Origin: Candidatus Tectimicrobiota bacterium
Lineage (GTDB): Bacteria; JACPUC01
Reading direction: 5' to 3'
Assembly (NCBI GenBank): GCA_016192455.1
Contig: JACPUC010000006.1
Location: 124,001 to 188,000 of the forward strand
DNA: 64,000 nt
Below are positions 14,622 to 27,596 of the stretch, in pieces. The position numbers and the translations under genes are program-made. Every line of letters starts with the position of its first letter. The first letter of the stretch is position 1. The notes beneath the pieces were generated by a model that was not told the origin of the DNA, ran no database searches, and worked only from the letters and a program-made list of their open reading frames with translations.

Positions 14622-16088
14622 TCAGGCCAAAAATTGCGCGATGCTCTCCAGCGCCAGGCTGCCGACGGCGATCTCCGGCGCCAGGACGCTCTCCTCGCTG
14701 CCCCAGACGAGCGTGGCGTGGCGCTCCCGCGAGATGCCCACAATGTCGTTGAAGAGGCGCAGGAAGTTATCGTTCACCCGCAGCGTATTGGGTTTCACGG
14801 GGCGGCTCAGCTTGCCGCCCTCGATGAGGTAGGAGTCCCCGACGATGGTGCCGGTGAAATCGCCCGGCCCCAGGCCGTGGATGGGGTAGGTGTACCACAG
14901 GCGGCCGACGTAGACGCCGCGCTCGATGCCGGCGAGCAACGCTTCGGGGGGCGCCTCGTTGTGGCCGCAGACGACGACGTTCGTCGGGAAGACCGTGGCG
15001 CGCCGCCGGAAGTCGCGCCCATTGTTGAAGCGGAAGCCGTTGCGCGGCGCGAACTCGCGCACGGGGCTGCGCAGCTTCTGCGAGGTGTAGTGATCGGCCA
15101 GGAAGCCGACGAGGCGGCCCTCCTCGATGAGGTCGGTGCGGCCCGTCGGCAGCCCCTCGCAGGTCACCTTCTTGCTGGCGATCTCGCCGGGGAGGGCGCC
15201 GTCGTCGTAGAGGCTCAGGCAAGGCGAGGCCACGCGCTCGCCCAGGCGGCCGCAGAAGGGACTGGCCTTGGCGTCGACGACATCGAGGCTCAGGGAGGGG
15301 ACGAGGAGGTTGCTCACCAGTTCCGTCACCGCCTGGCGCCCGAGCACGGCGGCGTAGCCGCCGGACGGCAGGCGCACGCCGCCGATGGTGTTGATGGCGC
15401 TCTGCGCGGCCTGGGCGCCGGCATCGCGGGGGGTGAACTTCGCCAGGTGCGTGGCGAGGCTCCAGCCGGTCCCCTTCACCTGCTCGCGCTCGATCATCGA
15501 GGTGATCGTCGCCATCAGGATGGTGGACTCGTCCGCCACGTCGATGCCCGTGGTGCTGACGATGGCCATGCGCTCCCGCAGCACGGTCACGTCGCCGTTG
15601 ACGATGAGCGTCTGCGTGAAGCCGGCGTCCTTGTACGTCAGCACGGCTCCCGACAGCGCCTGCCAGCCGAGATCGACGAGGGTCTCATCATCGAGCGCCA
15701 TGACCTGGGGGTCGTGGTAGTCCACCAGCCGTGGCGCCTCGGACGGCGGCTGGGGGAGGGAGTGGAAATCCGGGTCCAGCACGGCGTTGCGCGCCGCCTT
15801 CGTCACCGCCCGGTCCAGCCCGTCCGGCGTTAGACTCCCCACCTCGCTGCCGAAGCCGAGGCGGCGCTCCGTCCCGGCGCGGAAGACGGCCAGCACACCG
15901 ACGCCGAAGGAGGTGCTCGACTTCGGCTCGTGGACGCCGTTGCAGGGGATGTCGGAGGTGTAGTTCAGGCGGGCGATGAGCTGCTCATTGGCGGCCACGA
16001 ACAGTTCCGCCGCCTCCACGTCGGAACGCCGCCGCAGCCGCGCCAGGCCGTCGCGCGCGAAGCCCTGGAGTTCGTCGAGGGCGATCAA
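14622..16088 (-). CDS. tldE: TldE/PmbA, partner of TldD metalloprotease
   Basis: This 488-residue protein is the catalytically passive half of the TldD/E heterodimeric peptidase, which cleaves unfolded peptides in an internal chamber (microcin B17 and CcdA processing in E. coli). Family features are FGVGVLAVFRAGTERR, GRQAVTELVSNLL and SPFCGRLGERVASPCLSLYDDG, with no HExxxH, as expected for TldE. Translation starts at TTG (16086-16088), overlapping the tldD stop as TTGA, with GGGAGG six bases upstream. The overlap implies translational coupling and equal stoichiometry. Confidence 0.92.
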   Translation of the reverse strand: MIALDELQGFARDGLARLRRRSDVEAAELFVAANEQLIARLNYTSDIPCNGVHEPKSSTSFGVGVLAVFRAGTERRLGFGSEVGSLTPDGLDRAVTKAARNAVLDPDFHSLPQPPSEAPRLVDYHDPQVMALDDETLVDLGWQALSGAVLTYKDAGFTQTLIVNGDVTVLRERMAIVSTTGIDVADESTILMATITSMIEREQVKGTGWSLATHLAKFTPRDAGAQAAQSAINTIGGVRLPSGGYAAVLGRQAVTELVSNLLVPSLSLDVVDAKASPFCGRLGERVASPCLSLYDDGALPGEIASKKVTCEGLPTGRTDLIEEGRLVGFLADHYTSQKLRSPVREFAPRNGFRFNNGRDFRRRATVFPTNVVVCGHNEAPPEALLAGIERGVYVGRLWYTYPIHGLGPGDFTGTIVGDSYLIEGGKLSRPVKPNTLRVNDNFLRLFNDIVGISRERHATLVWGSEESVLAPEIAVGSLALESIAQFLA

Positions 16089-17662
16089 TGGGCACCTCCC
16101 GCGAGCCGGGCGCGTCCGCGCATCGTCGGGCCGCCGTTGCCGACGCGCATCGTCTGCATCGGCTGTCCCTTGCCGCAGTTCGGGATGGGGTAGACCTTGA
16201 AGTCGTTGCCCACGGCGTCGATGCTCATGAGGTAATCCTTCGAGTCCGCCGAGATGCCGCCGTTGCGGTAGAGCGTCGTCAGCTCGCCGCGCTCGATCTT
16301 GTAGACCTTGCGCGCCGTGATGCGGAAGTTCTCGCGCGACTCGCTGATCGACGGGATGCGATGCCCCGCCAGGTAGTAGCCCTCCTCCACCTCCCGCAAG
16401 ATCGAGTGCGGATCGCGCTCTCCCCCGGCGAAGACGGTGTTCGTCATGCGCACGAGCGGCACGTAGACCGGGTCGGTGGCGCGCATCGAGCCGTTCGGCT
16501 CCGTTCCCATGATGGCGGCCGACTCGCGGCTGTTCATGAAGCCGGTGAAGATGCCGCGGTCGATGTGGACGACGCGGCGGGCCTTCACCCCTTCAGCGTC
16601 GTACGCGTAGTGGCCGAACCCCTGCAGCGCCGGATCGGAGTAAGCGCTGACCAGCTCCGAGGCGACGCGCTGGCCGAGCATGTTCTGCCGCAGGCCGCCG
16701 TAGAGCCAGGTGCGGCCGGCGTAGCCGGTCTCCATCTTCAGGGCGCGGTCGGCCTCCACCGGATGGCCGACAATCTCGTGCACGAGGAGGGCATTGTAGT
16801 GCGGATCGGTGACGACGACGGCCTCGCCGAGGTCCGCCGGCAGCGGCGGCGCCTGCGCCAGCTCCAGGGTCTCCTCGGTGAGGCTTTGGGCGAAGTGGAG
16901 GAAATCCGTCCCCGCGACGTTCTCCCCGCGCAGCACCTCGTAGCCCTTCAGGTCGCCGAGGGTGTCGTAGTGAGCTTCGGGCGCGCCGCTGCCCGCCGCC
17001 ACCACGTAGAAGAAGCCGCGCGTCAGCGGGTAGGTCTGGTCGATGCAGGCGCCCTCGGAGCTGACGAAGAGCTCGCGGATGAGGCCGCTCGCCACCGCGG
17101 CGTGACTCGAGAGGACCCGGGGACTCAGCCCGGCGGCGCATTTCGTGGCCTCCACCGCCTCGCGCAGCATCTGCTCGCTCGGAATGCCGCGGGGGTCCTC
17201 GCGCCAGGGGAAGACGACGCTGTCCCGGCAGACCTCGACGCGCGCCAGGGTGGTGGAGTGCAGCGAGTTGCTCAGGGAACCGAAGAGGCGCTCGGCCTCC
17301 TGCTTGCGACGGGCATTGGCGATGGCGCGCTCGTAGGCGTGGCGCAGGCCCTCCGCGAGGACCTCCTGGAGGGCGTCCAGGCTGCCGCCGCCGAGCGCCT
17401 GGCCGAAGTAGCCCGGGGCGACCATTCCTTCTCGCCCACCCGCGCCCGCCAGGACGCGCACCCCGAACGACATCTCGGCGTCGTCGCCGCACTCCTTCGC
17501 CTTGCCGTCCTCGGCGGCGCCGTAGCGCGTCTCGCGCACCTCAAGGCGGACATCGGCGTAGGCGCAGCCTGGGCGACGGGCGGCGAAGTCCCGCACAAAC
17601 TGGGAGAGGCGTTCCTTCAGCTCGTCGATGACCTCGAGGCGCAGCGCGGATCGCTCGAGCAT
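16085..17662 (-). CDS. tldD: TldD zinc metalloprotease
   Basis: The 525-residue catalytic partner of TldE. The zinc-binding HExxxH is intact at His295-Glu296 and His300 (LLVHEIVGHPVEADR). The downstream region with FMNSRESAAIMGTEPNGSMRA is conserved in the family. The ATG at 17662 has a clear GGAG. The first 46 bases of the gene overlap the 3' end of the upstream Rieske gene. TldD/E pairs digest unstructured peptides or mature ribosomally made peptides. No precursor peptide is apparent here, so general proteolysis is the default reading. Confidence 0.94.
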   Translation of the reverse strand: MLERSALRLEVIDELKERLSQFVRDFAARRPGCAYADVRLEVRETRYGAAEDGKAKECGDDAEMSFGVRVLAGAGGREGMVAPGYFGQALGGGSLDALQEVLAEGLRHAYERAIANARRKQEAERLFGSLSNSLHSTTLARVEVCRDSVVFPWREDPRGIPSEQMLREAVEATKCAAGLSPRVLSSHAAVASGLIRELFVSSEGACIDQTYPLTRGFFYVVAAGSGAPEAHYDTLGDLKGYEVLRGENVAGTDFLHFAQSLTEETLELAQAPPLPADLGEAVVVTDPHYNALLVHEIVGHPVEADRALKMETGYAGRTWLYGGLRQNMLGQRVASELVSAYSDPALQGFGHYAYDAEGVKARRVVHIDRGIFTGFMNSRESAAIMGTEPNGSMRATDPVYVPLVRMTNTVFAGGERDPHSILREVEEGYYLAGHRIPSISESRENFRITARKVYKIERGELTTLYRNGGISADSKDYLMSIDAVGNDFKVYPIPNCGKGQPMQTMRVGNGGPTMRGRARLAGGAH

Positions 17663-18000
17663 TGCCCACCGCTCCTTTCTCCCCCGTGCGCCTCAGCCGG
17701 CGCGAGCAGGATGTCAGCCCCCTCCACCTTCACCTGGTAGGAGGCGACGCGCAGGCCCGGATCGAAGGTGCAGGCGCCGCTGCGCACGTCGAAGGACCAC
17801 ATGTGCCAGGGGCAGGTGACCTCGGCGCCGTTGAGGAACCCATCGGCCAGCGGACCACCCGCATGCGGGCAGGTGTTGTCGATGGCGTAGAACGAACCCG
17901 CCACCCTGAAGAGGGCCACACTGGTTTGACCATACTGCGCCATGATGCCGGCCCCCTCCGGGACCTCGTCTATTTCGGCGACTTTCACGAACTCAGCCAT
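17617..18000 (-). CDS. Rieske-type [2Fe-2S] ferredoxin
   Basis: A small soluble Rieske protein of 127 residues. Cluster ligands are Cys44/His46 in CPHAGG and Cys63/His66 in CPWHMWSF, matching CxH and CxxH. It resembles NirD/ferredoxin components of dioxygenases rather than membrane bc1 Rieske proteins, because there is no signal or transmembrane helix and the CxH arm lacks the disulfide-forming extra Cys. The ATG at 18000 has GGAG eight bases upstream. The last 15 codons overlap tldD in another frame. It heads the minus-strand block and could donate electrons to an oxidoreductase, but no partner is evident. Confidence 0.9.
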   Translation of the reverse strand: MAEFVKVAEIDEVPEGAGIMAQYGQTSVALFRVAGSFYAIDNTCPHAGGPLADGFLNGAEVTCPWHMWSFDVRSGACTFDPGLRVASYQVKVEGADILLAPAEAHGGERSGGQCSSDPRCASRSSTS

Positions 18001-18719
18001 GGAGGACTCCATACTCCCATGTCTCCAGGGGAACTCCACCCCGAGGCGGCATCCCTGAAGCTCCCCGTCCACGTCCGCTTGCGCCTGACGGCAGGACGAA
18101 ACACCGTCGCGGCGCGCCACGCCGCACCTTAGGTGGGGATGGCTCGATCGCATGTTCCGCCGCCCCACGCCTCCAGGATGCGCCGCTGCTTCCGGTGCTG
18201 GTTCGGGCGATTCCGCGACGCCCTGCGGTGGAGGGGGCATCCCTTCACCCCGCGGTCCGGGAAACCACCCTTGCGCCGGGTTCCTGTCCGCCCCGCCCCT
18301 GTTTCCGGCCCTGGATCACGCCGCAAAGTATAGGTGTTGACGGCTGCCCGGAAAAGGCCTTTCCGTCCGCAGCAGGTTGGCGGAGCCGCGCAGCCGCGCA
18401 GCGTGGCGCCATGGACCCAGCCCCTCATCGAGGCCGCGGCCCCCGCTGTCGCCGCCGGGGCGGGCGGCCCGGCGCACGTGCTGGGGCGGCGGCGGGTTGA
18501 GCCGGGGAGAGTTTCCGCGCGGTGCCGGCCGGGCGAGATCGGCGCAGACAGGTGGCGGCTGGCCGCGGCGGGCTGAAAGGAGAGGAGGCAAGGAAGGGCT
18601 TGACGGTGGGGCCGGAGGCTAAGCTAGAGAATACTGATGCGCACTTTCCTCGCACCGCCGCGGCGCCTCCCTCCATACCGCCCCCGGCTGCGCTGACATC
18701 TTGCTAAGTTCTCCTGGAA

Positions 18720-18737
18720 CCTTGACGTTGATCAAGG
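18720..18737 (+). promoter_or_regulatory. FNR/CRP-family-type binding site upstream of the iron-uptake operon
   Basis: CCTTGACGTTGATCAAGG has perfect CCTTGA/TCAAGG arms. Its core TTGAC-GTTG-ATCAA matches 9 of 10 positions of the FNR consensus TTGAT-N4-ATCAA. Its centre is about 41 bases upstream of the start site that would follow the -10-like TTAAAT at 18757-18762, the classical class II activator position. No good -35 hexamer is present, as expected for an activator-dependent promoter. Confidence 0.5.
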
Positions 18738-18767
18738 AATTTCATGGAGCAGGGCCTTAAATTCAAA

Positions 18768-18782
18768 TGAGTGTCATTCTCA
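18768..18782 (+). promoter_or_regulatory. Fur-like box upstream of ftr1 operon
   Basis: TGAGTGTCATTCTCA matches the 7-1-7 Fur motif (TGATAATNATTATCA) at 10 of 14 arm positions. The right half, ATTCTCA, is shared with the box upstream of apbE at 23640. It would overlap the transcription start, a repressing position. The iron-transport genes downstream support the reading. Confidence 0.5.
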
Positions 18783-18879
18783 CTTACGCTGCGGCGTCTG
18801 CTCCCCACCCTGGACCTTCCCACGCGCCGCCGCCAGCGGCAGGGTGGGAGAGGCAATCGCGTCGGCAAAGGGAATACCC

Positions 18880-20166
18880 ATGGAGGTTCTTTCCAAGCTC
18901 TTAGAGGCCCTCGTGGTGACGCTGCGCGAAGGCGTCGAGGCGGCGCTCGTCATCGGGATCGTGCTCGCCTACCTCGGCAAAACCCAGCAGCGCCACCTCG
19001 ATCGTTTCGTCTACCGCGGCTTGCTGGCCGCCGTTGGGGTGAGCTTCCTGACCGCTCTCTTGCTCTACAAACTCGGCCTGGATGCCGAAAACGAGCTCTT
19101 TGAGGGCATCTTCATGCTGCTCGCCGCGGCGCTGGTGGGGACCTTCCTCATCTGGATGTGGCGGACCAGCGGCACCCTGAAGCAGCGCCTGGAGGCCCGC
19201 CTTGGGCAGGTGACCGCGGCAGGATCGGGAGTCGGGATATTCTGCTTCACCTTCGTGATGGTGCTGCGGGAGGGCATTGAGACGGTGATGTTCCTCCTGG
19301 CGCTCTCCGCGAGCATCGGCGCCAACCCCTTCTACAATCTCCTGGGAGGCAGCCTCGGACTCCTGCTCGCCCTCATTTTCGGCATCCTCTTCGTGAAAGG
19401 GAGTGTGCGCGTCAATCTGAAGAGCTTCTTCGGCGCCACCAGCGTCGTCCTCGCACTGCTCCTCCTGAAGCTCGTGGCCAACGGCCTGCATGAGTTCTTC
19501 GAGGTCGGGGTGCTGCCCTCCACGCCATGGCTCCTTGCGGTGGTCGGATTCCTCACCAAGAAGAGCATCTCGGTCCTCATCCTCATCGCCTTGATCGCCA
19601 TCCCGGCCGCCGTGATGCTGCGCGATGGGCTGCGCAACCAGGCCGCCCTGCCCGATCCCTCCCTCTCGGAGGCGGAGCGGCGCAAGCTGCGCGCGGATGT
19701 CCGCCGCGCGAAACGCTGGACCGCCACCACGGCGGCGCTCGCTCTTGCCGTGAGCACACTGCTCGGCGTGTCGCTCGTGGCCGCGGCGCGCCGCGGTTTT
19801 GACCCGGCCCCGCAGGCCCTCGCCGCGAGCGCAACGATCCGCCTGCCGCTGGCGGAGGCGACGGCGCAGCCGATGCAGAAGTATGCCGTGGACCTCGACG
19901 GCGCCGCCGTCCGCTTCTTCACGGCGGTGAACGGCAAGGGTGGCGTTGCCGTCGCCTTCGACGCCTGCTCGATCTGTCCCGTCAAGGGATACTCCCATCA
20001 AGGCGATCATCTGGTCTGCAACAACTGCGGGGCGCCGATCGCCCTCCACAGCATCGGTGAGCAGGGCGGCTGCAACCCCATTCCCCTGTCCGCGGTGGTG
20101 ACCGAGGACGCCCTGGTGATTCGCGCGGCGGACCTGGCGGCGGAACGGGATCGCTTCCTGCGCTAA
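18880..20166 (+). CDS. FTR1-family iron permease fused to DUF2318 Fe-S-type domain
   Basis: A 428-residue fusion. The N-terminal part has seven or so transmembrane helices and both FTR1 REXXE iron-binding motifs, R16EGVE20 and R130EGIE134. After the last helix (about 287-303) a C-terminal extracytoplasmic DUF2318 domain carries Cys363, Cys366, Cys380, Cys383 and Cys398 (CSICPVKGY, CNNCGAPI). In epsilonproteobacterial P19-type clusters these two modules are separate genes next to the same pair of ABC permeases. ATG at 18880 is preferred over the GTG at 18844 because AAAGGG precedes it and homology begins there. It is the first gene of an apparent four-gene iron operon. Confidence 0.9.
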   Translation: MEVLSKLLEALVVTLREGVEAALVIGIVLAYLGKTQQRHLDRFVYRGLLAAVGVSFLTALLLYKLGLDAENELFEGIFMLLAAALVGTFLIWMWRTSGTLKQRLEARLGQVTAAGSGVGIFCFTFVMVLREGIETVMFLLALSASIGANPFYNLLGGSLGLLLALIFGILFVKGSVRVNLKSFFGATSVVLALLLLKLVANGLHEFFEVGVLPSTPWLLAVVGFLTKKSISVLILIALIAIPAAVMLRDGLRNQAALPDPSLSEAERRKLRADVRRAKRWTATTAALALAVSTLLGVSLVAAARRGFDPAPQALAASATIRLPLAEATAQPMQKYAVDLDGAAVRFFTAVNGKGGVAVAFDACSICPVKGYSHQGDHLVCNNCGAPIALHSIGEQGGCNPIPLSAVVTEDALVIRAADLAAERDRFLR

Positions 20167-20208
20167 CCCGGAGCAGTCAAACAGGCGTGGTCAGGAAAGG
20201 GGAGCTCG

Positions 20209-21594
20209 GTGCTCGGTCGTCTCCTCGTGAAGTCGCTCCTGAAGCAGCGCAGCCGGACGCTCCTCGTGCTGCTCTCCGCCGCCACGGCGGCCACGCTGAT
20301 CTCGGCGTTCCTCAGCCTTGCCTTGCAGCTCACGGAGAAGGTGGCGGCAGAGCTGCGCTCCTTCGGTGCCAACATCGTGCTGAGCCCGCGCGCCGAGCCG
20401 CTCGAGGTGGAGATCGGCGGTTTGAAGCACGTCGCCGCGGCGGAGGCGGCCTACCTCGACGCCGCCGACCTGCCGAAGATCAAGGGCATCTTCTGGCGGC
20501 ACAACATTGTCAGCTTCGCGCCGTTCCTCTCGGGCGCGGTGGAGGTGGAGGGGAGGCGGGTCCTCCTCGTTGGCACCTGGTTCCAGCGGCCGGTCGACGT
20601 GCCCGGTGGGGGGAGTCTGCTGATCCGCGGCGGCAGCCAGCGCCGGGCCGTCTCCGAGGAGGCCTTGCGGAAGGCGGCCATGACCGCCCCCAGCGAGGCG
20701 ACGACGTTTCGCGCCGGTGTGCGCACCCTGGCCCCCTGGTGGCAGGTGGAGGGGAGATGGCTCGGCAACGAGGAGGATGCCGTCCTCGTCGGCCGCCTCC
20801 TCAGCCAGCGACTCAATGTCGGCCCCGGCGGCACGCTGCGCCTCACCGCCGAGGGTCGAAGCATGAGCCTGCCGGTGCGCGGCATCGTCGCCACCGGCGG
20901 GCCGGAGGAAGAGCAGCTCTTCGTTCGCCTGGAACTCGCCCAGGCGATCCTGGGGCTCCCCGGCAAGGTGGAGAAGGTCCAGGTCAGCGCTCTGGTCAGC
21001 CCGGACAACGCGCTGGCGGGGCGCGCCGAGCGTATCGGCCCGGAGAAGCTCCCCCAGGAGGAGTACGAGAAGTGGTACTGCACGCCCTACCTCAGCTCCA
21101 TCATCCATCAGCTTGAGGAGGCGCTGCCGGCGGCGAAAGGGAAAGCGATCCGCCGGGTGAGCGAGGCGGAGGCGGGCTTCCTGGGCAAGATGCGGCTGAC
21201 GCTCCTCCTCATCGCCGGCATCGCCTTGGTGGTCGCCGCCCTCGGCGTCATGGCGACGCTCATGACAGCCATCTACGAGCGGCGCGAGGAGTTCGGGCTC
21301 ATGAAGGCGATCGGCGCCAACCGGTCGCAGGTGGGGCTGCTGCTCCTCCTCGAGAGCGGGCTGACGGGCCTGGCGGGCGGGGCGCTCGGTTATGCCGCGG
21401 GCCTCACCTTCACGCGGCTCCTCGCTGCCTCCGTCTTCTCCGCCGCGCCTGCCGCGCCGCCCTCCCTGGCGCTCCAGGGCCTCGTCCTCACCCTCACCCT
21501 CCTCCTCTCGGCGGGGGTGGCGCTCCTGGGGGCGTTGCTGCCGATGCGAGGCGCGATGCGGCTCGATCCGGTTCAGACCCTGCGAGGAGAGTAA
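20209..21594 (+). CDS. FtsX/MacB-type ABC transporter permease, first of pair
   Basis: A 461-residue permease of the MacB/LolC superfamily. It has an N-terminal helix (SRTLLVLLSAATAATLISAF), a large periplasmic MacB-type domain (about 40-300) and three C-terminal helices (LIAGIALVVAALGVMATLM, ESGLTGLAGGALGYAAG, LVLTLTLLLSAGVALLGALL). Such permeases are mechanotransducers moving or remodelling periplasmic partners rather than pumping solutes. GTG start with GGGGAG. In the analogous Campylobacter P19 iron locus, two FtsX-like permeases and an ATPase also follow ftr1, so a role in high-affinity iron uptake is likely. Confidence 0.85.
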   Translation: MLGRLLVKSLLKQRSRTLLVLLSAATAATLISAFLSLALQLTEKVAAELRSFGANIVLSPRAEPLEVEIGGLKHVAAAEAAYLDAADLPKIKGIFWRHNIVSFAPFLSGAVEVEGRRVLLVGTWFQRPVDVPGGGSLLIRGGSQRRAVSEEALRKAAMTAPSEATTFRAGVRTLAPWWQVEGRWLGNEEDAVLVGRLLSQRLNVGPGGTLRLTAEGRSMSLPVRGIVATGGPEEEQLFVRLELAQAILGLPGKVEKVQVSALVSPDNALAGRAERIGPEKLPQEEYEKWYCTPYLSSIIHQLEEALPAAKGKAIRRVSEAEAGFLGKMRLTLLLIAGIALVVAALGVMATLMTAIYERREEFGLMKAIGANRSQVGLLLLLESGLTGLAGGALGYAAGLTFTRLLAASVFSAAPAAPPSLALQGLVLTLTLLLSAGVALLGALLPMRGAMRLDPVQTLRGE

Positions 21595-21595
21595 G

Positions 21596-22711
21596 ATGCG
21601 CGGCATGCGCTGGATCATCCTCTGCGGCGCCCTGCGCCATCGCAAGGCGCGGGTCCTCCTCTCGGTGTCTGCCCTCACGCTCGGCGCCGCGCTCATCGTC
21701 ACCACGGTGAACCTGCGGCAAGGCATCCGCGGCAAGCTGGCCGCGGAGCTGCAGAACTACGGCGCCAACCTCCTCGTCACCCCGGCGCCCGGCGCCGCGC
21801 CGCAGCTCGCCGAGGCGCGCCTGGCGGTGCTTGAGGGGGAAGCGACGCGGGGTCGCCTGGTGGGGTACGCGCCGGTCCTCTACGTGAGAGCCAAGGCCGG
21901 CGGTCGCGACGTCGTCGTCGTCGGCACGGACGTCGCCGCCATGCAGCGCATTAGCCCCTGGTGGAAGGTGGCGGGGGCCTGGCCGCGGCGTCCCGACGAA
22001 GCGCTCGTCGGCGCCAACGCCGCGGCGAAGCTGGGACTGCGCGTCGGCGACAGATTTCGCGCGGCGCAGGGCGCAGAGGCGCTCGAGCTCGCCGTAGCCG
22101 GCATCCTGCAGACGGGGGACGCCGAGGAGCACCAGGTCTTCGTGGCGCTGCCGGGCGCCCAGCGTCTTGCCCAGCGCCCCGGGCAGATCACCTCGGTGCT
22201 CCTCCGCAGCCGCGCCGGGGAGGGTCTCGAGGCCCTTGCCGCGGCGCTCCAGGCGGCCTGGCCGGATGCCGTGGTGCGCACCCTGCGCCAGACCGCGCTG
22301 GCGGAAGCAGCGCTGCTCGGCAACCTCGAGCGCTTCCTCCTCGCGGTCAGCCTTCTCGTCCTCTTCGCCGCCGGACTCTGCGCCTTTGCGACGATGAACA
22401 CGGAAGCCCTGGAGCGCAAGGTCGAGATCGCACTCATGCGGGCCCTCGGAGCCGATGGGCGGGAAATCGGCTGGATCTTCACCTGCGAGGCCCTGGGGGT
22501 CGGCCTCCTGGCGGGGCTCCTCGGCTGCGTCCTTGGTATCCTCCTGGCGCTGGTTATCGGCATGAGCGTCTTTCATACCCTCGTCGTGCCGAGTTTCGTC
22601 AGCCTCCCCGCCGGACTCCTGGCGGGCCTGCTCGTGTCGCTCCTGGCAAGCCTGTCGGTTGTCCGCCGCGCGGCGAGCCTGCCCCCGGCGCTGGTACTGC
22701 GCGGCGAGTGA
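21596..22711 (+). CDS. FtsX/MacB-type ABC transporter permease, second of pair
   Basis: A 371-residue paralogue of the preceding gene, starting one base after its stop, so the two are tightly coupled. The layout is again one N-terminal helix, a periplasmic domain with GANLLVTPAPGAAPQL, and three C-terminal helices (FLLAVSLLVLFAAGLCAFATM; EALGVGLLAGLLGCVLGILLA; LLAGLLVSLLASLSVV). ALERKVEIALMRALGADGREI is the cytoplasmic coupling region contacting the ATPase. It presumably forms a heterodimer with the first permease. Confidence 0.87.
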   Translation: MRGMRWIILCGALRHRKARVLLSVSALTLGAALIVTTVNLRQGIRGKLAAELQNYGANLLVTPAPGAAPQLAEARLAVLEGEATRGRLVGYAPVLYVRAKAGGRDVVVVGTDVAAMQRISPWWKVAGAWPRRPDEALVGANAAAKLGLRVGDRFRAAQGAEALELAVAGILQTGDAEEHQVFVALPGAQRLAQRPGQITSVLLRSRAGEGLEALAAALQAAWPDAVVRTLRQTALAEAALLGNLERFLLAVSLLVLFAAGLCAFATMNTEALERKVEIALMRALGADGREIGWIFTCEALGVGLLAGLLGCVLGILLALVIGMSVFHTLVVPSFVSLPAGLLAGLLVSLLASLSVVRRAASLPPALVLRGE

Positions 22712-22778
22712 GCGCTACCACGTCGACAAGGGGACACGTCACCCCGATGCCGCTTCACTCTCGCTCGAGGGATTGATC

Positions 22779-23519
22779 ATGGCGCCCTTGATTCACCTGC
22801 ATGAGTTGACGAAGGACTACCCGAACGGCGTGCGCTCCCTCGATCGCATCAGCGTGGAGATCGAACGGGGCGAGTGGGTTGCCGTGATGGGAGCCTCAGG
22901 CTCGGGGAAGACCACCCTCCTGAACATGATCGCCGCCCTCGACCGGCCCACCGCGGGCTCGCTCCGGATCGACGGCATCGACCTCGTCAGTCTTGGAGAG
23001 GAGGATCGCACGCGTTTCCGGCGCGAGAAGGTGGGCCTCGTCTTCCAGCAGTTCTACCTCATCCCTTACCTGAGCGCCGTCGAGAACGTCATGCTGGCGC
23101 AGTACTTCCACAGCATGGCCGACCGCGACGAAGCCGCCCGGGCGCTCCATCAGGTGGGGCTGGGAGAGCGGCTCCACCACCTGCCGGCGCAGCTCTCCGG
23201 TGGTGAGCAGCAGCGCGTCTGCCTGGCGCGGGCGCTGATCAACGACCCCGCCATCATCCTCGCCGACGAGCCGACGGGGAATCTCGACGCGCAGAACGAG
23301 GTGCTGGTGATGGAGCTCTTTCAGGCCCTGCACGCCGCCGGCCACACCCTCCTCATCGTCACCCACGATGCGCACATCGGCGCCCGGGCGGACCGCATCG
23401 TCCAGCTCGAACACGGGCGCGTCGTTCCCGCCGGAGCAGAGCCTGCCGCTCCTCTGATGGGGAATGGCGACGCCGGGGCCGCCCGCCGACAGGTGGCCTG
23501 GACGCCGGGCGGGGCCTGA
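22779..23519 (+). CDS. ABC transporter ATPase, LolD/MacB type
   Basis: A 246-residue ATPase. Walker A is at 38-45 (GASGSGKT), the Q-loop is [13 protein letters not shown], the signature is LSGGEQQR and Walker B is [12 protein letters not shown], followed by a switch His (VTHD). This is the LolD/MacB/FtsE group that pairs with FtsX-type permeases, consistent with the two preceding genes. The unit ends about 80 bases before the next promoter. The last 30 residues are non-conserved. Confidence 0.93.
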
Positions 23520-23602
23520 GGGGGAGGTCGCCCCTCGCGCCGGCGCGGCGCCGACTCCCGGCCGTGACGGTGGTCGGGCCGGGCCTGTCACGCAGACGCT
23601 GC

Positions 23603-23631
23603 TTGACAGGAGGGGGGAGGGCGCCTATATT
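23603..23631 (+). promoter_or_regulatory. Consensus sigma70-type promoter for the apbE unit
   Basis: TTGACA (23603-23608), a 17-base spacer and TATATT (23626-23631) form a near-perfect housekeeping promoter. Its strength in a GC-rich genome implies it needs repression. A Fur-like box begins immediately downstream. Confidence 0.75.
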
Positions 23632-23639
23632 TTGAGATT

Positions 23640-23654
23640 GAAACTCATTCTCAT
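23640..23654 (+). promoter_or_regulatory. Fur-like box overlapping the apbE transcription start
   Basis: TGAAACTCATTCTCA matches the 7-1-7 Fur motif at 11 of 14 arm positions. Together with TTGAGAT just upstream it forms an extended repeat array from 23632. The sequence CTCATTCTCA resembles the site before ftr1. It would cover the start region of the promoter, as Fur repressor sites normally do. Confidence 0.6.
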
Positions 23655-23686
23655 TTATCCTAACGACGTTGCAGGTCGATCGCCGC

Positions 23687-24778
23687 ATGCTCTCCCGACG
23701 CCGCTTTCTCCGTAGCACCCTGGGCGCCCTTGCCGGACTGCTCGTCCTCCAGCGTCCCGCTCATACCTCAGCGCTGCGGCGCTACCGCGCCCTGCCCATG
23801 CTCGGCACGCTCGTCGAGGTGAGCATCTCGGCGTCGCCGGAGACCGCCGCCCCACCGCCGCGCCAGGCCGTCTCGCCCAGCGAGGCATGCTTCCGCACCG
23901 CGTTCGCCGCCGTGCGGCAGGTCGACCACCGCATGAGCGTCTTCCAGGCCGCCAGCGACGTGAGCCGGGTCAACGCCGCCGCCGGCTCCGGCGCCGTGCC
24001 GATTGGCGCCGACACCGCCCTTGTCCTCACGACGGCGGGGCACATCGCCAGGCAGAGCGGCGGCGCCCTCGATGTCACGCTGGGCCGCCTGAGCGCCTGG
24101 CAGCGCCGCAGCGGAGCGTTCGTCCTGCCCCATCGCCTCATTGATGCCGCGCTTGCGGCTGGAGGCATGGCTGCCCTGCACCTCGGGGCCGGAGGCAGGC
24201 TCGCCCGGCTCGCCACGCCGCAGGCGCAGCTCGATCTCGGCGCGATCGCCAAGGGCTACGCGGTGGATGCGGCACTCACGGCGCTGCGGCGGGATAGGGA
24301 TGTGACAGCGGCGCTGGTCAACGCGGGAGGCGATCTCCGGGCCTGGGGAGAACCGCCGGGCGCGGCCGCCTGGCGGATCGGCGTGCGGCACCCGCTGGAG
24401 CCGCGCCGCCTGCTCCTCGTCCTCCTTCTCGAGGAAGGCGCGGTGGCCACCTCCGGGAACGACCTCGAGGGCTACGGGGAGGGGCAGGCTCGCGCCGCGT
24501 CGGGCCTGGTGCTCGATCCCCGCAGCGGCGCCGCGACGCCGCGGGATCTCACCGCCACGGTGCTCGCCGGCTCCGCCATGGAGGCCGATGCGCACGCCAC
24601 GGCGGCGCTGGTCCTCGGCCCCGAGGAGGGCCTCCCCTACCTTGCCAGGGTGGGGGCGGAAGGGCTCTTCGCGCGCGGCGTCGAGCGCAAGTCCGGCCCG
24701 CGCCTCCTGGTGCTCTGCGGGGAGCGCACCCGGAGCCGCATCGTGTGGCTGGCGGAGGAGGCGGAGATCGTCTCGTAA
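23687..24778 (+). CDS. apbE: ApbE-type FAD:protein FMN transferase, Tat-exported
   Basis: ApbE covalently attaches FMN from FAD to a Thr/Ser of target proteins outside the cytoplasmic membrane. The 363-residue protein begins with a twin-arginine signal (SRRRFLRSTLGALAGLLVL). Family landmarks are LPMLGTLVEVSI near the N-terminus, LDLGAIAKGYAVDAAL for FAD binding, VNAGGDLRAWG, and ATVLAGSAMEADAHATAALV near the metal site. The likely substrate is the FMN-binding protein encoded two genes downstream. ATG at 23687 is chosen over TTG at 23669 because the Tat motif starts there. Confidence 0.93.
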   Translation: MLSRRRFLRSTLGALAGLLVLQRPAHTSALRRYRALPMLGTLVEVSISASPETAAPPPRQAVSPSEACFRTAFAAVRQVDHRMSVFQAASDVSRVNAAAGSGAVPIGADTALVLTTAGHIARQSGGALDVTLGRLSAWQRRSGAFVLPHRLIDAALAAGGMAALHLGAGGRLARLATPQAQLDLGAIAKGYAVDAALTALRRDRDVTAALVNAGGDLRAWGEPPGAAAWRIGVRHPLEPRRLLLVLLLEEGAVATSGNDLEGYGEGQARAASGLVLDPRSGAATPRDLTATVLAGSAMEADAHATAALVLGPEEGLPYLARVGAEGLFARGVERKSGPRLLVLCGERTRSRIVWLAEEAEIVS

Positions 24779-25019
24779 GGAAGGTCAGCGCCCCGCCGGC
24801 CGAGCCTGCGGGGCGCCACCACGAGCAGCATGCCAGGGGACAACGGGGACGCGGCTGGCCAGAGCACGACCCCCGTCGCCCCTGGGGGTGGTTCCGACTG
24901 CAGAGCTCCCATGGAGTGCAGCAACGGAACCCCTGCGTGTTCCTCTCGATCTCTCTACCACAGGGGTGAAGAGAGGTAAACCTTGCGCGCCATGCTCTCC
25001 TGTCTTGTTCCTTGCTGGC

Positions 25020-26462
25020 ATGGAGGTGTCGAAGGTGCATCCTCTCTCCGACCGAGTGCATCGTCTCAGAGTCGGCATGTGGTGGGCGGCGTTCCTGGGC
25101 GCGTGGTTTCTGCTGCTCCTGGCGCTGGCGGACGTCACGGCGCAGGAGCGCCCGGCGGCCGGCGGCGCTTCGCCCGCGGAGGTCCGCATGCAGCAGCTTG
25201 AAGCGGAGATGCGGGCCCTGACGAAGGAGCTCGCCGCCATGCGCGAGCAGTTCAAAGGCGACGGGCGGCTGGCCGAGGTGGATCGCAAGATCGAGGTGCT
25301 GGCCGGTGAGCTGGAGAGCCTGCGCACCCAGCTCACCGTGCCGGCGAAGAAGGAGCTGAAGAGCCAGTTCGGCCTGGGGCCGGCGGCCTCGTCGGTCTAC
25401 CAGCTCACCCAGGGGCTCTCCATCGGCGGCTACGGCGAGGCGAGCTACCGCAGCTTCTTCGATCCCGACGATCCCCCTGCCAAGGTGGACTTGACGCGGG
25501 CAGTCCTCTACTTCGGTTACAAATTCTCCGACCGTATCGTCTTCAACTCTGAGATCGAGTTCGAGCATGCCACCACGGGTTCGACGGTGAGCGCCGGGAG
25601 CGGCGAGGCCTCCGTAGAGTTCGCGGCGCTGGACTTCTTCCTGAGGCCGGAGATCAACGCGCGCGCCGGTCTGCTCCTCGTTCCCATGGGGTTCCTCAAT
25701 GAGACGCACGAGCCGCCGTTCTACCATGGCGTGCAGCGGCCCGAGGTGGAGCGCCAGATCATCCCCTCCACCTGGCGCGAGAACGGCTTCGGCATCTTCG
25801 GCAATCTCGGCGACAAGGTGAGCTATCGCACCTACCTCATCAACAGCGTGAACGCCAAGGGATTCCGCGCCTCCGACTTGCGCAACGTCCGGCAGAAAGG
25901 GAACGAGGCGCTGGCCGAAGACTTCGCCTGGGTCGGGCGCCTCGACGTGAAACCGATCCCGGAGCTCCTCCTTGGCGGCTCCTTCTTCCTGGGCGATACC
26001 GGCCAGGACCAGACGTTCGCCGGACGCAAGGTGGACGCCTTCACCGCGCTCGGCTCGCTGCACGCCCAGCTTCGCTATCGTGGAATGGAGCTGCGGGGCC
26101 TAGGGGTGTGGGGGTCCATCGACGACGCCGAGGCGCTGAGCGCCGATCCGGCCATTCGCGGCCCCATCAGCGAGGAGGTCTGGGGCGCCTACGGCGAGAT
26201 CGCCTACGACCTCATGCGCCTCATCAAGCCCGAGTCGCAGCAGTCGCTCACGCCCTTCTATCGCTTCGAGCGCTGGAACACCCAGGATGACGTGCCGCGC
26301 GGCTTCGTCGCCGACCTGCGGCGCGATGTCACCCTCAACACCTTGGGCCTCGACTACAAGCCCCACCCGAACGTGGTCTTGAAGAGCGAGTTCCGCTTCT
26401 TCGAGCAGGAGCGGGGCGAACGGTCCGACGAGTTTGCCTTAGGCATCGGCTATGTCTTTTGA
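25020..26462 (+). CDS. Outer-membrane porin-like beta-barrel with N-terminal coiled coil
   Basis: A 480-residue secreted protein. After a hydrophobic signal (WWAAFLGAWFLLLLALADV, cleavage near AQ-ER) comes a heptad-rich coiled coil (MQQLEAEMRALTKELAAMRE). Then a barrel with alternating patterns begins at LSIGGYGEASYRSF and ends in GIGYVF, a terminal aromatic typical of outer-membrane barrels. It resembles phosphate-selective/porin O-type proteins by pattern, with no TonB box or plug. The alternative start ATG 25077 would give a tighter signal peptide. Its position in the apbE unit suggests passage of iron or an iron-bearing small molecule across the outer membrane. Confidence 0.75.
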   Translation: MEVSKVHPLSDRVHRLRVGMWWAAFLGAWFLLLLALADVTAQERPAAGGASPAEVRMQQLEAEMRALTKELAAMREQFKGDGRLAEVDRKIEVLAGELESLRTQLTVPAKKELKSQFGLGPAASSVYQLTQGLSIGGYGEASYRSFFDPDDPPAKVDLTRAVLYFGYKFSDRIVFNSEIEFEHATTGSTVSAGSGEASVEFAALDFFLRPEINARAGLLLVPMGFLNETHEPPFYHGVQRPEVERQIIPSTWRENGFGIFGNLGDKVSYRTYLINSVNAKGFRASDLRNVRQKGNEALAEDFAWVGRLDVKPIPELLLGGSFFLGDTGQDQTFAGRKVDAFTALGSLHAQLRYRGMELRGLGVWGSIDDAEALSADPAIRGPISEEVWGAYGEIAYDLMRLIKPESQQSLTPFYRFERWNTQDDVPRGFVADLRRDVTLNTLGLDYKPHPNVVLKSEFRFFEQERGERSDEFALGIGYVF

Positions 26463-27079
26463 TGAAGGAACGGCTTTCGATGCGGCAACGCTTCGTGGTG
26501 GGTCGTAGCGGCTGGGGCCGCGGCGCGGGTCTCGGGTTCGCGGCGCTCTGCCTCGGCTTCTGGAGTCTTGGCCTCTGGGGCTGGGGAGGTCCGGCCGCGC
26601 AGGCGCGGGTCTTCTTCAGCATCGAGGAGGGGCTGCAGCAAGCCTTTCCCGAGGCGACACGCTTCAGCAGCCGCACCTTCATCCCCACGCCGGAGCAGCA
26701 GGCCGCCCTGGAGAAACGCGCCGCGGCGGCCTTCTCGCGCCAGCTCCTGAAGGTCTGGATGGCGCACGCCGGGGAGCGGCTCCTCGGCTACGCCAGCATT
26801 GACATCCACACCGTGCGCACGCTCCCCGAAGCGGTTCTCATTGCGCTCACGCCGCAGGGGAGCGTGCGCACCGTCATCATTCTGGCGTTCCATGAGCCGT
26901 CCGAGTACCAGCCGCCGGGGCGGTGGCTCGAACTCTTCCAGGAGAAGCGTCTTGCCCCCACCCTGGCGTTCGGGCGGGATATCGCCGGCATCACCGGCTC
27001 GACGTTGAGCTCCCGCGCCATCACGAGTTCGGTGCGCCGGGCGCTCGCTGTGTACGAGGTTTTTCTGCGAGGATCGTAA
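26462..27079 (+). CDS. FMN-binding-domain protein, probable ApbE substrate
   Basis: A 205-residue exported protein, with a signal-like hydrophobic stretch at about 22-47. It has one FMN_bind domain resembling NqrC/RnfG. The flavinylation-type motif is GSTLSS at 179-184, placing the acceptor at Thr181. The preceding core (HTVRTLPEAVLIALTPQG...VIILAFHEPSEYQPP) fits the domain. The start codon overlaps the porin stop (TGATG). Next door is an apbE gene, so covalent FMN attachment is highly probable. The domain is not fused to heme or Fe-S modules, so electrons would have to come from another protein, plausibly the membrane protein that follows. Confidence 0.85.
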   Translation: MKERLSMRQRFVVGRSGWGRGAGLGFAALCLGFWSLGLWGWGGPAAQARVFFSIEEGLQQAFPEATRFSSRTFIPTPEQQAALEKRAAAAFSRQLLKVWMAHAGERLLGYASIDIHTVRTLPEAVLIALTPQGSVRTVIILAFHEPSEYQPPGRWLELFQEKRLAPTLAFGRDIAGITGSTLSSRAITSSVRRALAVYEVFLRGS

Positions 27080-27080
27080 C

Positions 27081-27596
27081 ATGCGCTTCGTGGTGACCGG
27101 CGAGTGGCGCGCCAATACGTTGCTCCGCCTCATCCTTCTCCTCTTCCTGCTCTTCGTCGCCCTCCTCTGGCTGACGAACGCGCTCCTCTTCTTCTCCAAG
27201 ATGAGCCTCTCGCCAGCATCCATCGTGGAGTTCTACCGTGGCTCCGAGGCGCGCTTCCTGACCCCCCGCAGCTACCAGGGGCTGCTCGAGATGAGCCACT
27301 TCCACCTCTTCGCCATGGGCATCCTGCTCATGACCATGGCGCACCTGCTGCTCTTCGCGCGCCTCTCGAACCGCGTCAAGGCGTGGACGATCCTCATCTC
27401 CTTCCTGGGGGCCCTCGCCGATGAAGGGGGCGGCTGGCTCGTGCGCTTCGCGCATCCCGGTTTCGCCTCCCTGAAGCTGGCGGGGTTCGTCGCCTTGCAG
27501 CTTGGCCTGGGCGTTATGATCATCGCCTGCGCCCTGGCGGCGGCCTACCCGCAGACGCTGGCCTCGCGCGCCTCGGGGATCATTTCCTCGACGTAG
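27081..27596 (+). CDS. Four-helix membrane protein with conserved-looking histidines, unknown family
   Basis: 171 residues, one base after the FMN-binding gene. Four hydrophobic segments are visible: about 15-38, 72-93, 100-121 and 131-156. Helix two holds SHFHLFAMG and MAHLL, giving His73, His75 and His88, with His125 before helix four. Two His on one helix or facing helices are compatible with heme b ligation. I do not recognise the family. Placement after ApbE and an FMN protein suggests a quinol-to-flavin electron conduit, an inference only. Confidence 0.7.
   Translation: MRFVVTGEWRANTLLRLILLLFLLFVALLWLTNALLFFSKMSLSPASIVEFYRGSEARFLTPRSYQGLLEMSHFHLFAMGILLMTMAHLLLFARLSNRVKAWTILISFLGALADEGGGWLVRFAHPGFASLKLAGFVALQLGLGVMIIACALAAAYPQTLASRASGIISST

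Follow-up and report, generated by a model that had tools for sequence, protein, structure and literature searches.

How an FTR1-type permease might be supplied with iron in the absence of the periplasmic P19 protein is the question raised by a locus of Candidatus Tectimicrobiota bacterium (GCA_016192455.1, contig JACPUC010000006.1), which lies in a 64,000-nucleotide stretch of DNA, the whole of which is here called the window. Its two plus-strand units with their eight genes, and the Fur-like box ahead of each, were located exactly where the original prediction had placed them (Table 1). That prediction held that the locus serves iron import and that a covalently flavinylated protein stands in for, or complements, P19 by reducing ferric iron outside the membrane. 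We judge it to be a P19-less, flavin-linked iron-acquisition locus, and below we consider each of its parts, including an undescribed 171-residue membrane protein, M171, in light of their occurrence in other genomes.

Table 1. Features of the two-unit locus, in window coordinates
Feature	Position	Strand	Remarks
Fur-like box 1, TGAGTGTCATTCTCA	18768..18782		2 mismatches to TGAGAATNATTCTCA; upstream of unit one
FTR1 iron permease fused to FtrD-like (DUF2318) domain	18844..20166	+	PF03239 E 6e-37, PF10080 E 4.5e-25 (Pfam); likely start ATG 18880
FtsX-like ABC permease 1	20209..21594	+	PF02687
FtsX/MacB-like ABC permease 2 (MacB_PCD-FtsX)	21596..22711	+	PF02687 and PF12704
ABC ATPase of the FtsX pair	22776..23519	+	PF00005
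Sigma-70-like promoter of unit two, TTGACA-17-TATATT	23603..23631	+	11/12 consensus bases
Fur-like box 2, TGAAACTCATTCTCA	23639..23653		near TGAGAATNATTCTCA; upstream of unit two, just 3' of the -10 hexamer
ApbE-family flavin transferase	23688..24778	+	PF02424 E 5e-57; Tat-like N-terminus (MLSRRRFLRS); reading frame 23669-24778, likely start 23688
Outer-membrane beta-barrel (porin-like) protein	25020..26462	+	N-terminal coiled coil; start uncertain
Exported RnfG/NqrC-like FMN_bind protein	26459..27079	+	PF04205 at cut-off; motif TGST
M171, four-TM protein	27081..27596	+	no Pfam family; invariant E70, H73, H75, H88, E115, W119, R122

The first unit has the features of P19-type iron systems. Its FTR1 region displays two REGxE motifs (REGVE and REGIE), in keeping with the REXXE signature of these systems, and the fused DUF2318 domain contains the Cys array CSIC-x13-CNNC-x14-C, an exact instance of their CxxC-x13-CxxC-x14-C motif, also described from the P19 operon of Campylobacter (PMC6083913). 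Downstream, Pfam matches identify the two ABC permeases and the ATPase that are likewise typical of such systems, with MacB/FtsE/LolD being the closest NCBIfam models for the ATPase. The component that is missing is P19 itself, as the original prediction had recognized: its domain (PF10634) was not found in the whole genome, which is 88% complete. This genome has no convincing FeoB, the best matches (E 1e-13) probably being other GTPases, and codes for a single TonB-plug protein. A search for a terminator between the two units found none, and an Rfam search of the window gave no match. Upstream of the locus, on the minus strand (14622-18165), are two TldD/PmbA-type genes and a small Rieske ferredoxin gene.

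Palindromes ahead of the two units indicate that both are apparently under iron control. In the window, three matches to TGAGAATNATTCTCA with at most three mismatches were recovered against 0.42 expected, and a scan of the whole 4.46-Mb genome at two mismatches or fewer yielded six places, with none for a reversed control pattern. Of the six, three immediately precede unit one, unit two and a gene coding for a cytochrome c-FTR1 fusion, one falls within an antiporter-like reading frame, and two have no obvious iron gene adjoining them. The genome has one Fur gene. The cytochrome c-FTR1 fusion, encoded on another contig (L036 8466-10502, contig C20), is the second FTR1 of this genome, and a one-mismatch Fur-like palindrome, TGAGAATGATTGTCA, occurs just upstream of its gene; it is a second iron permease of the same putative regulon. 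The palindromes extend to relatives of unit two, which recurs elsewhere as a module: when the best palindrome no more than 300 bases from the head is taken, a box with at most one mismatch is seen in 25 of 58 module loci as against 6 of 327 other gene heads on the same contigs, although the p-values overstate this enrichment since the loci are not independent (e.g., several near-identical Binatota-type heads). These hits cover Binatota, Methylococcales, Myxococcota and the window, and about a dozen loci have a Fur-family gene directly upstream of the module. The genome scan and the relatives' module heads support putative Fur-type control of the locus.

The second unit contains the candidate flavin machinery, with the genome's only FMN_bind gene and its only ApbE gene both lying in the window. 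Whereas 37 of 44 members of the FMN_bind family match PF04205, the window protein alone is a marginal match; a family profile search recovers RnfG (E 1e-8), and the structural model of the protein (pLDDT 90) matches the folds of RnfG and NqrC. The acceptor Thr of the flavinylation motif is invariant in the family (44/44). In the window protein the motif reads TGST rather than [ST]GA[ST] and the upstream Asp is absent; a GST form is also found in Binatota with an intact ApbE. The window ApbE lacks the catalytic general-base His: the relevant region (24450-24540) reads SGLVLDPRSG, with Leu/Val in place of His257, while its Ser and Asp catalytic partners are retained and the His is kept in the module ApbEs aligned with it. 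A review of how ApbE works assigns the role of general base to His257 and states that activity falls when this residue is lost (PMC12052999). Because this is the sole ApbE of the genome, covalent flavinylation there is uncertain: the enzyme may retain partial activity, FMN may be bound non-covalently, or the gene may be decaying. The porin gene overlaps the FMN_bind gene by 4 bases, and M171 starts one base after the latter; as the Pfam matches of the porin are below or barely at cut-off, we assign it to no porin family.

M171 is modeled as a four-helix membrane bundle (pLDDT 87), whose invariant residues hold across 53 sequences and include three His (H73, H75 and H88) that all lie in TM2, with some distant homologs keeping only the HxH. 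None of the 53 members matched PepSY, NapH, DsbD, NqrB/RnfD or DUF4405 at E <=1, the family giving one stray weak match to Ni_hydr_CYTB. A sequence search of solved structures found no match for M171, nor did a Foldseek search with its model find a PDB match at E <0.001. MAPEG and focal-adhesion bundles were rejected as relatives, as the VIA-align scores (Z <=9.6) are at a level that the tool describes as common for helical bundles. By the positive-inside rule, the HxH and the E115/W119/R122 cluster would face the periplasm and H88 the cytoplasm. The invariant His fit a bis-His haem across an M171 homodimer, as proposed for FezC (PMC11334425), with a quinol or metal site equally allowed by this arrangement, and we infer that M171 might be a quinol-oxidizing electron carrier. 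In the family at large, one locus has two intact M171-like genes in tandem (L047), and in another a decayed, frame-broken second copy lies between an ABC ATPase gene and an intact M171 (L048 9868-11170). A distant M171 subfamily is paired with an FMN_bind-like protein (L051 9388-11474, L054 3841-5034); in L051 the pair is followed by a solute-binding ABC gene that resembles oxyanion (tungstate-type) binders, with no iron importer there, suggesting that part of the M171 family may serve another substrate.

Of 290 widely sampled genomes, 24 contain a homolog of M171, and such homologs are also present in 286 stretches of a named genome collection. The source phylum is a very sparsely sampled lineage, there being no other member of it among the searched genomes. 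The module comprised of ApbE, porin, FMN_bind and M171 is conserved in Methylococcales (including Methylococcus capsulatus, L133), Myxococcota, Binatota, Entotheonella and other lineages. With gene calls in the GC-rich loci made using similarity weights, the 80 best related loci have a porin beside FMN_bind/M171 in 71 cases and an ApbE in 44, and FMN_bind is normally directly upstream of M171. This gene set was not described in the literature that we searched, though such absence is weak evidence. In Methylococcales loci (L081, L089, L100, L104, L124, L126, L129, L133), a MauG/CcpA-type di-haem peroxidase gene often lies inside the module or next to it, and in many cases the ApbE gene is not a direct neighbor.

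None of these 80 loci has FTR1-DUF2318 or FtsX homologs nearby, which indicates that unit two is a self-standing module and that its pairing in the window is uncommon. The pairing with FTR1-DUF2318 itself is weaker than the original prediction supposed: the full module accompanies it in the window only, and M171 alone does so in one other genome. This rarity, along with the separate promoter and box of unit two, would be compatible with the units being independent iron-starvation genes that are neighbors by chance or shared regulation, with the FtsX/ATPase set exporting something unrelated. We consider this unlikely in view of that other genome (L048), which is from a different lineage and has M171 downstream of the same run of FTR1-DUF2318, FtsX, FtsX and ATPase genes, with the decayed M171 copy preceding the intact one. 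Both genomes with such a run beside M171 are without P19, and in one further genome (G131) the P19 gene adjoins FTR1, away from M171; replacement of P19 in genomes of this type fits these observations, two cases in all.

The module was also found in apparent operons with other iron importers. Same-strand runs include Fur-FeoA-FeoB-M171-FMN_bind-porin (L035), porin-FMN_bind/ApbE-M171-FeoB (L032), an FMN_bind/ApbE fusion followed by M171, a DtxR-type repressor and FeoB (L058), and FTR1 followed by a porin-like gene, a CxxCH protein, an FMN_bind/ApbE fusion and M171 (L034). In two loci (L043, L044), the module and a cytochrome c-FTR1 gene are divergently oriented; this gene is a relative of the second FTR1 of the source genome and adds another FTR1 type to those linked with M171. 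Imelysin and di-haem oxidoreductase genes flank the module in Entotheonella (L059) and lie directly 3' of M171 in a deltaproteobacterial metagenome-assembled genome (L064); imelysin belongs to the M75 family and is related to the iron protein EfeO/M. Across the 24 genomes, 8 of 29 FTR1/FeoB genes lie no more than 10 kb from M171, where 0.19 would be expected, and counting each of two related pairs once leaves six (Poisson p about 6e-8). Thus, the anticipated conservation holds for iron importers in general, and the proposed iron function and link of the flavin module to iron import gain support across distant genomes. The module probably serves to reduce iron on the outer side of the cell membrane, ahead of its uptake.

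In most relatives, however, no iron transporter adjoins the module, which mostly stands alone, and the Methylococcales copies lie by housekeeping genes or the di-haem MauG-type peroxidases. This might be expected of a module with a general role in periplasmic electron transfer or stress that is iron-regulated as an iron-sparing replacement for cytochromes and performs no iron reduction for uptake, and flavins have indeed been discussed as iron-sparing substitutes by Meheust et al. (PMC8238504). We regard such a role as rather doubtful, since it does not predict FeoAB, FTR1 and imelysin in the same operon in unrelated genomes, or the proximity of FTR1/FeoB genes to M171.

The direction of electron flow needs separate consideration. 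Import by FTR1-type permeases is believed to be coupled to the oxidation of ferrous iron (PMC11966278), and electrons could then run the opposite way, with the flavin and M171 taking them from the ferrous oxidation that drives FTR1 and feeding them to the quinone pool. The proposal that FTR1/FtrC uses the energy of this oxidation (PMC11966278) is in favor of such a flow, as is the fact that neither a cupredoxin nor P19 is encoded in the two units. We nevertheless deem it improbable: FeoB, too, is found with the module, and as a direct importer of ferrous iron it needs no ferrous oxidase, which is why we favor reduction over oxidation. Moreover, the potentials of flavins are ordinarily low for accepting electrons from iron.

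Based on the gene content, the Fur boxes, the absence of P19 and the recurrent linkage to several unrelated iron importers, we propose, with moderate confidence, that this is an iron-starvation locus in which electrons pass from quinol via M171 to a periplasmic flavin that reduces ferric iron for FTR1-DUF2318. Under this proposal, the two Fur-repressed units would be expressed upon iron starvation, ApbE would load FMN onto the exported RnfG-like protein, and ferric iron would enter through the dedicated porin. Membrane electrons would flow from quinol, probably via haem b on the TM2 His residues, through M171 to the flavoprotein, which would reduce ferric iron in the periplasm; the ferrous product would then be handed to FTR1-DUF2318, while the FtsX/ATPase pair would play the accessory role that it has in P19 systems. 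We count against this reading the lone modules in most relatives, the His-less ApbE, the TGST motif, the coupling to ferrous oxidation suggested for FTR1-type permeases and the L051 pair. A more far-reaching and speculative idea, which we hold to be rather unlikely, is that M171 represents a further class of transmembrane electron carrier for extracytoplasmic flavoproteins and, with the porin, builds a flavin conduit across the envelope that serves assimilatory ferric reduction and can be combined with FTR1, FeoB or imelysin uptake alike; if true, this would be the flavin counterpart of the porin-cytochrome conduits. Ferric reduction outside the inner membrane is poorly known for Gram-negative bacteria that have neither P19 nor a rich set of siderophore systems, and the widespread Fur-linked four-gene module with M171, which belongs to no described family, provides a concrete candidate electron donor to FTR1 and FeoB. 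Its presence in bacteria that are harmless and can be cultured, such as Methylococcus capsulatus, makes this directly testable.

The presence of FMN-binding proteins in P19/FTR1 operons, and their possible role in iron reduction, are already known (PMC6083913, PMC8238504): a flavoprotein in place of, or beside, the thioredoxin has been published for such operons (PMC6083913, PMC8238504), and FMN-binding redox partners are known in those of Actinobacteria, Firmicutes, Spirochaetes and Synergistetes (PMC6083913). The new elements are the form of the FTR1-DUF2318 system without P19, the porin, M171, and a Fur-linked module of four genes that is associated with FeoB, FTR1 and imelysin. The locus resembles the Campylobacter jejuni 1649-1656 P19/FTR1 operon (PMC6083913) in its FTR1, DUF2318 Cys motif, two permeases, ATPase and Fur box; it differs in the absence of P19 from the genome, the fusion of FTR1 to DUF2318, and the placement of the redox part, thioredoxins in C. 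jejuni, in a unit of its own that has a Fur box and encodes ApbE, porin and M171. The flavinylation/P19 clusters of Meheust et al. 2021 (PMC8238504) similarly combine FMN_bind with FTR1 and were proposed to function in iron assimilation, but these contain P19 and are mostly Gram-positive, whereas the window lacks P19 and encodes a porin and a transmembrane partner not described before. Like the flavinylation- and ferrosome-linked cytochromes DUF4405 and FezC (PMC11334425), M171 is a small membrane helical bundle with conserved His encoded next to ApbE, and FezC needs a dimer for its haem sites, as suggested for M171; unlike them, M171 has no Pfam DUF4405 match and has four helices with three invariant His in one helix. 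Finally, the FtrABCD system of Brucella and Bordetella (PMC11966278) shares the FTR1-type permease (FtrC) and the FtrD-type partner, whereas in place of FtrA (P19) and the cupredoxin FtrB the window has the FtsX/ATPase genes and the flavin module.
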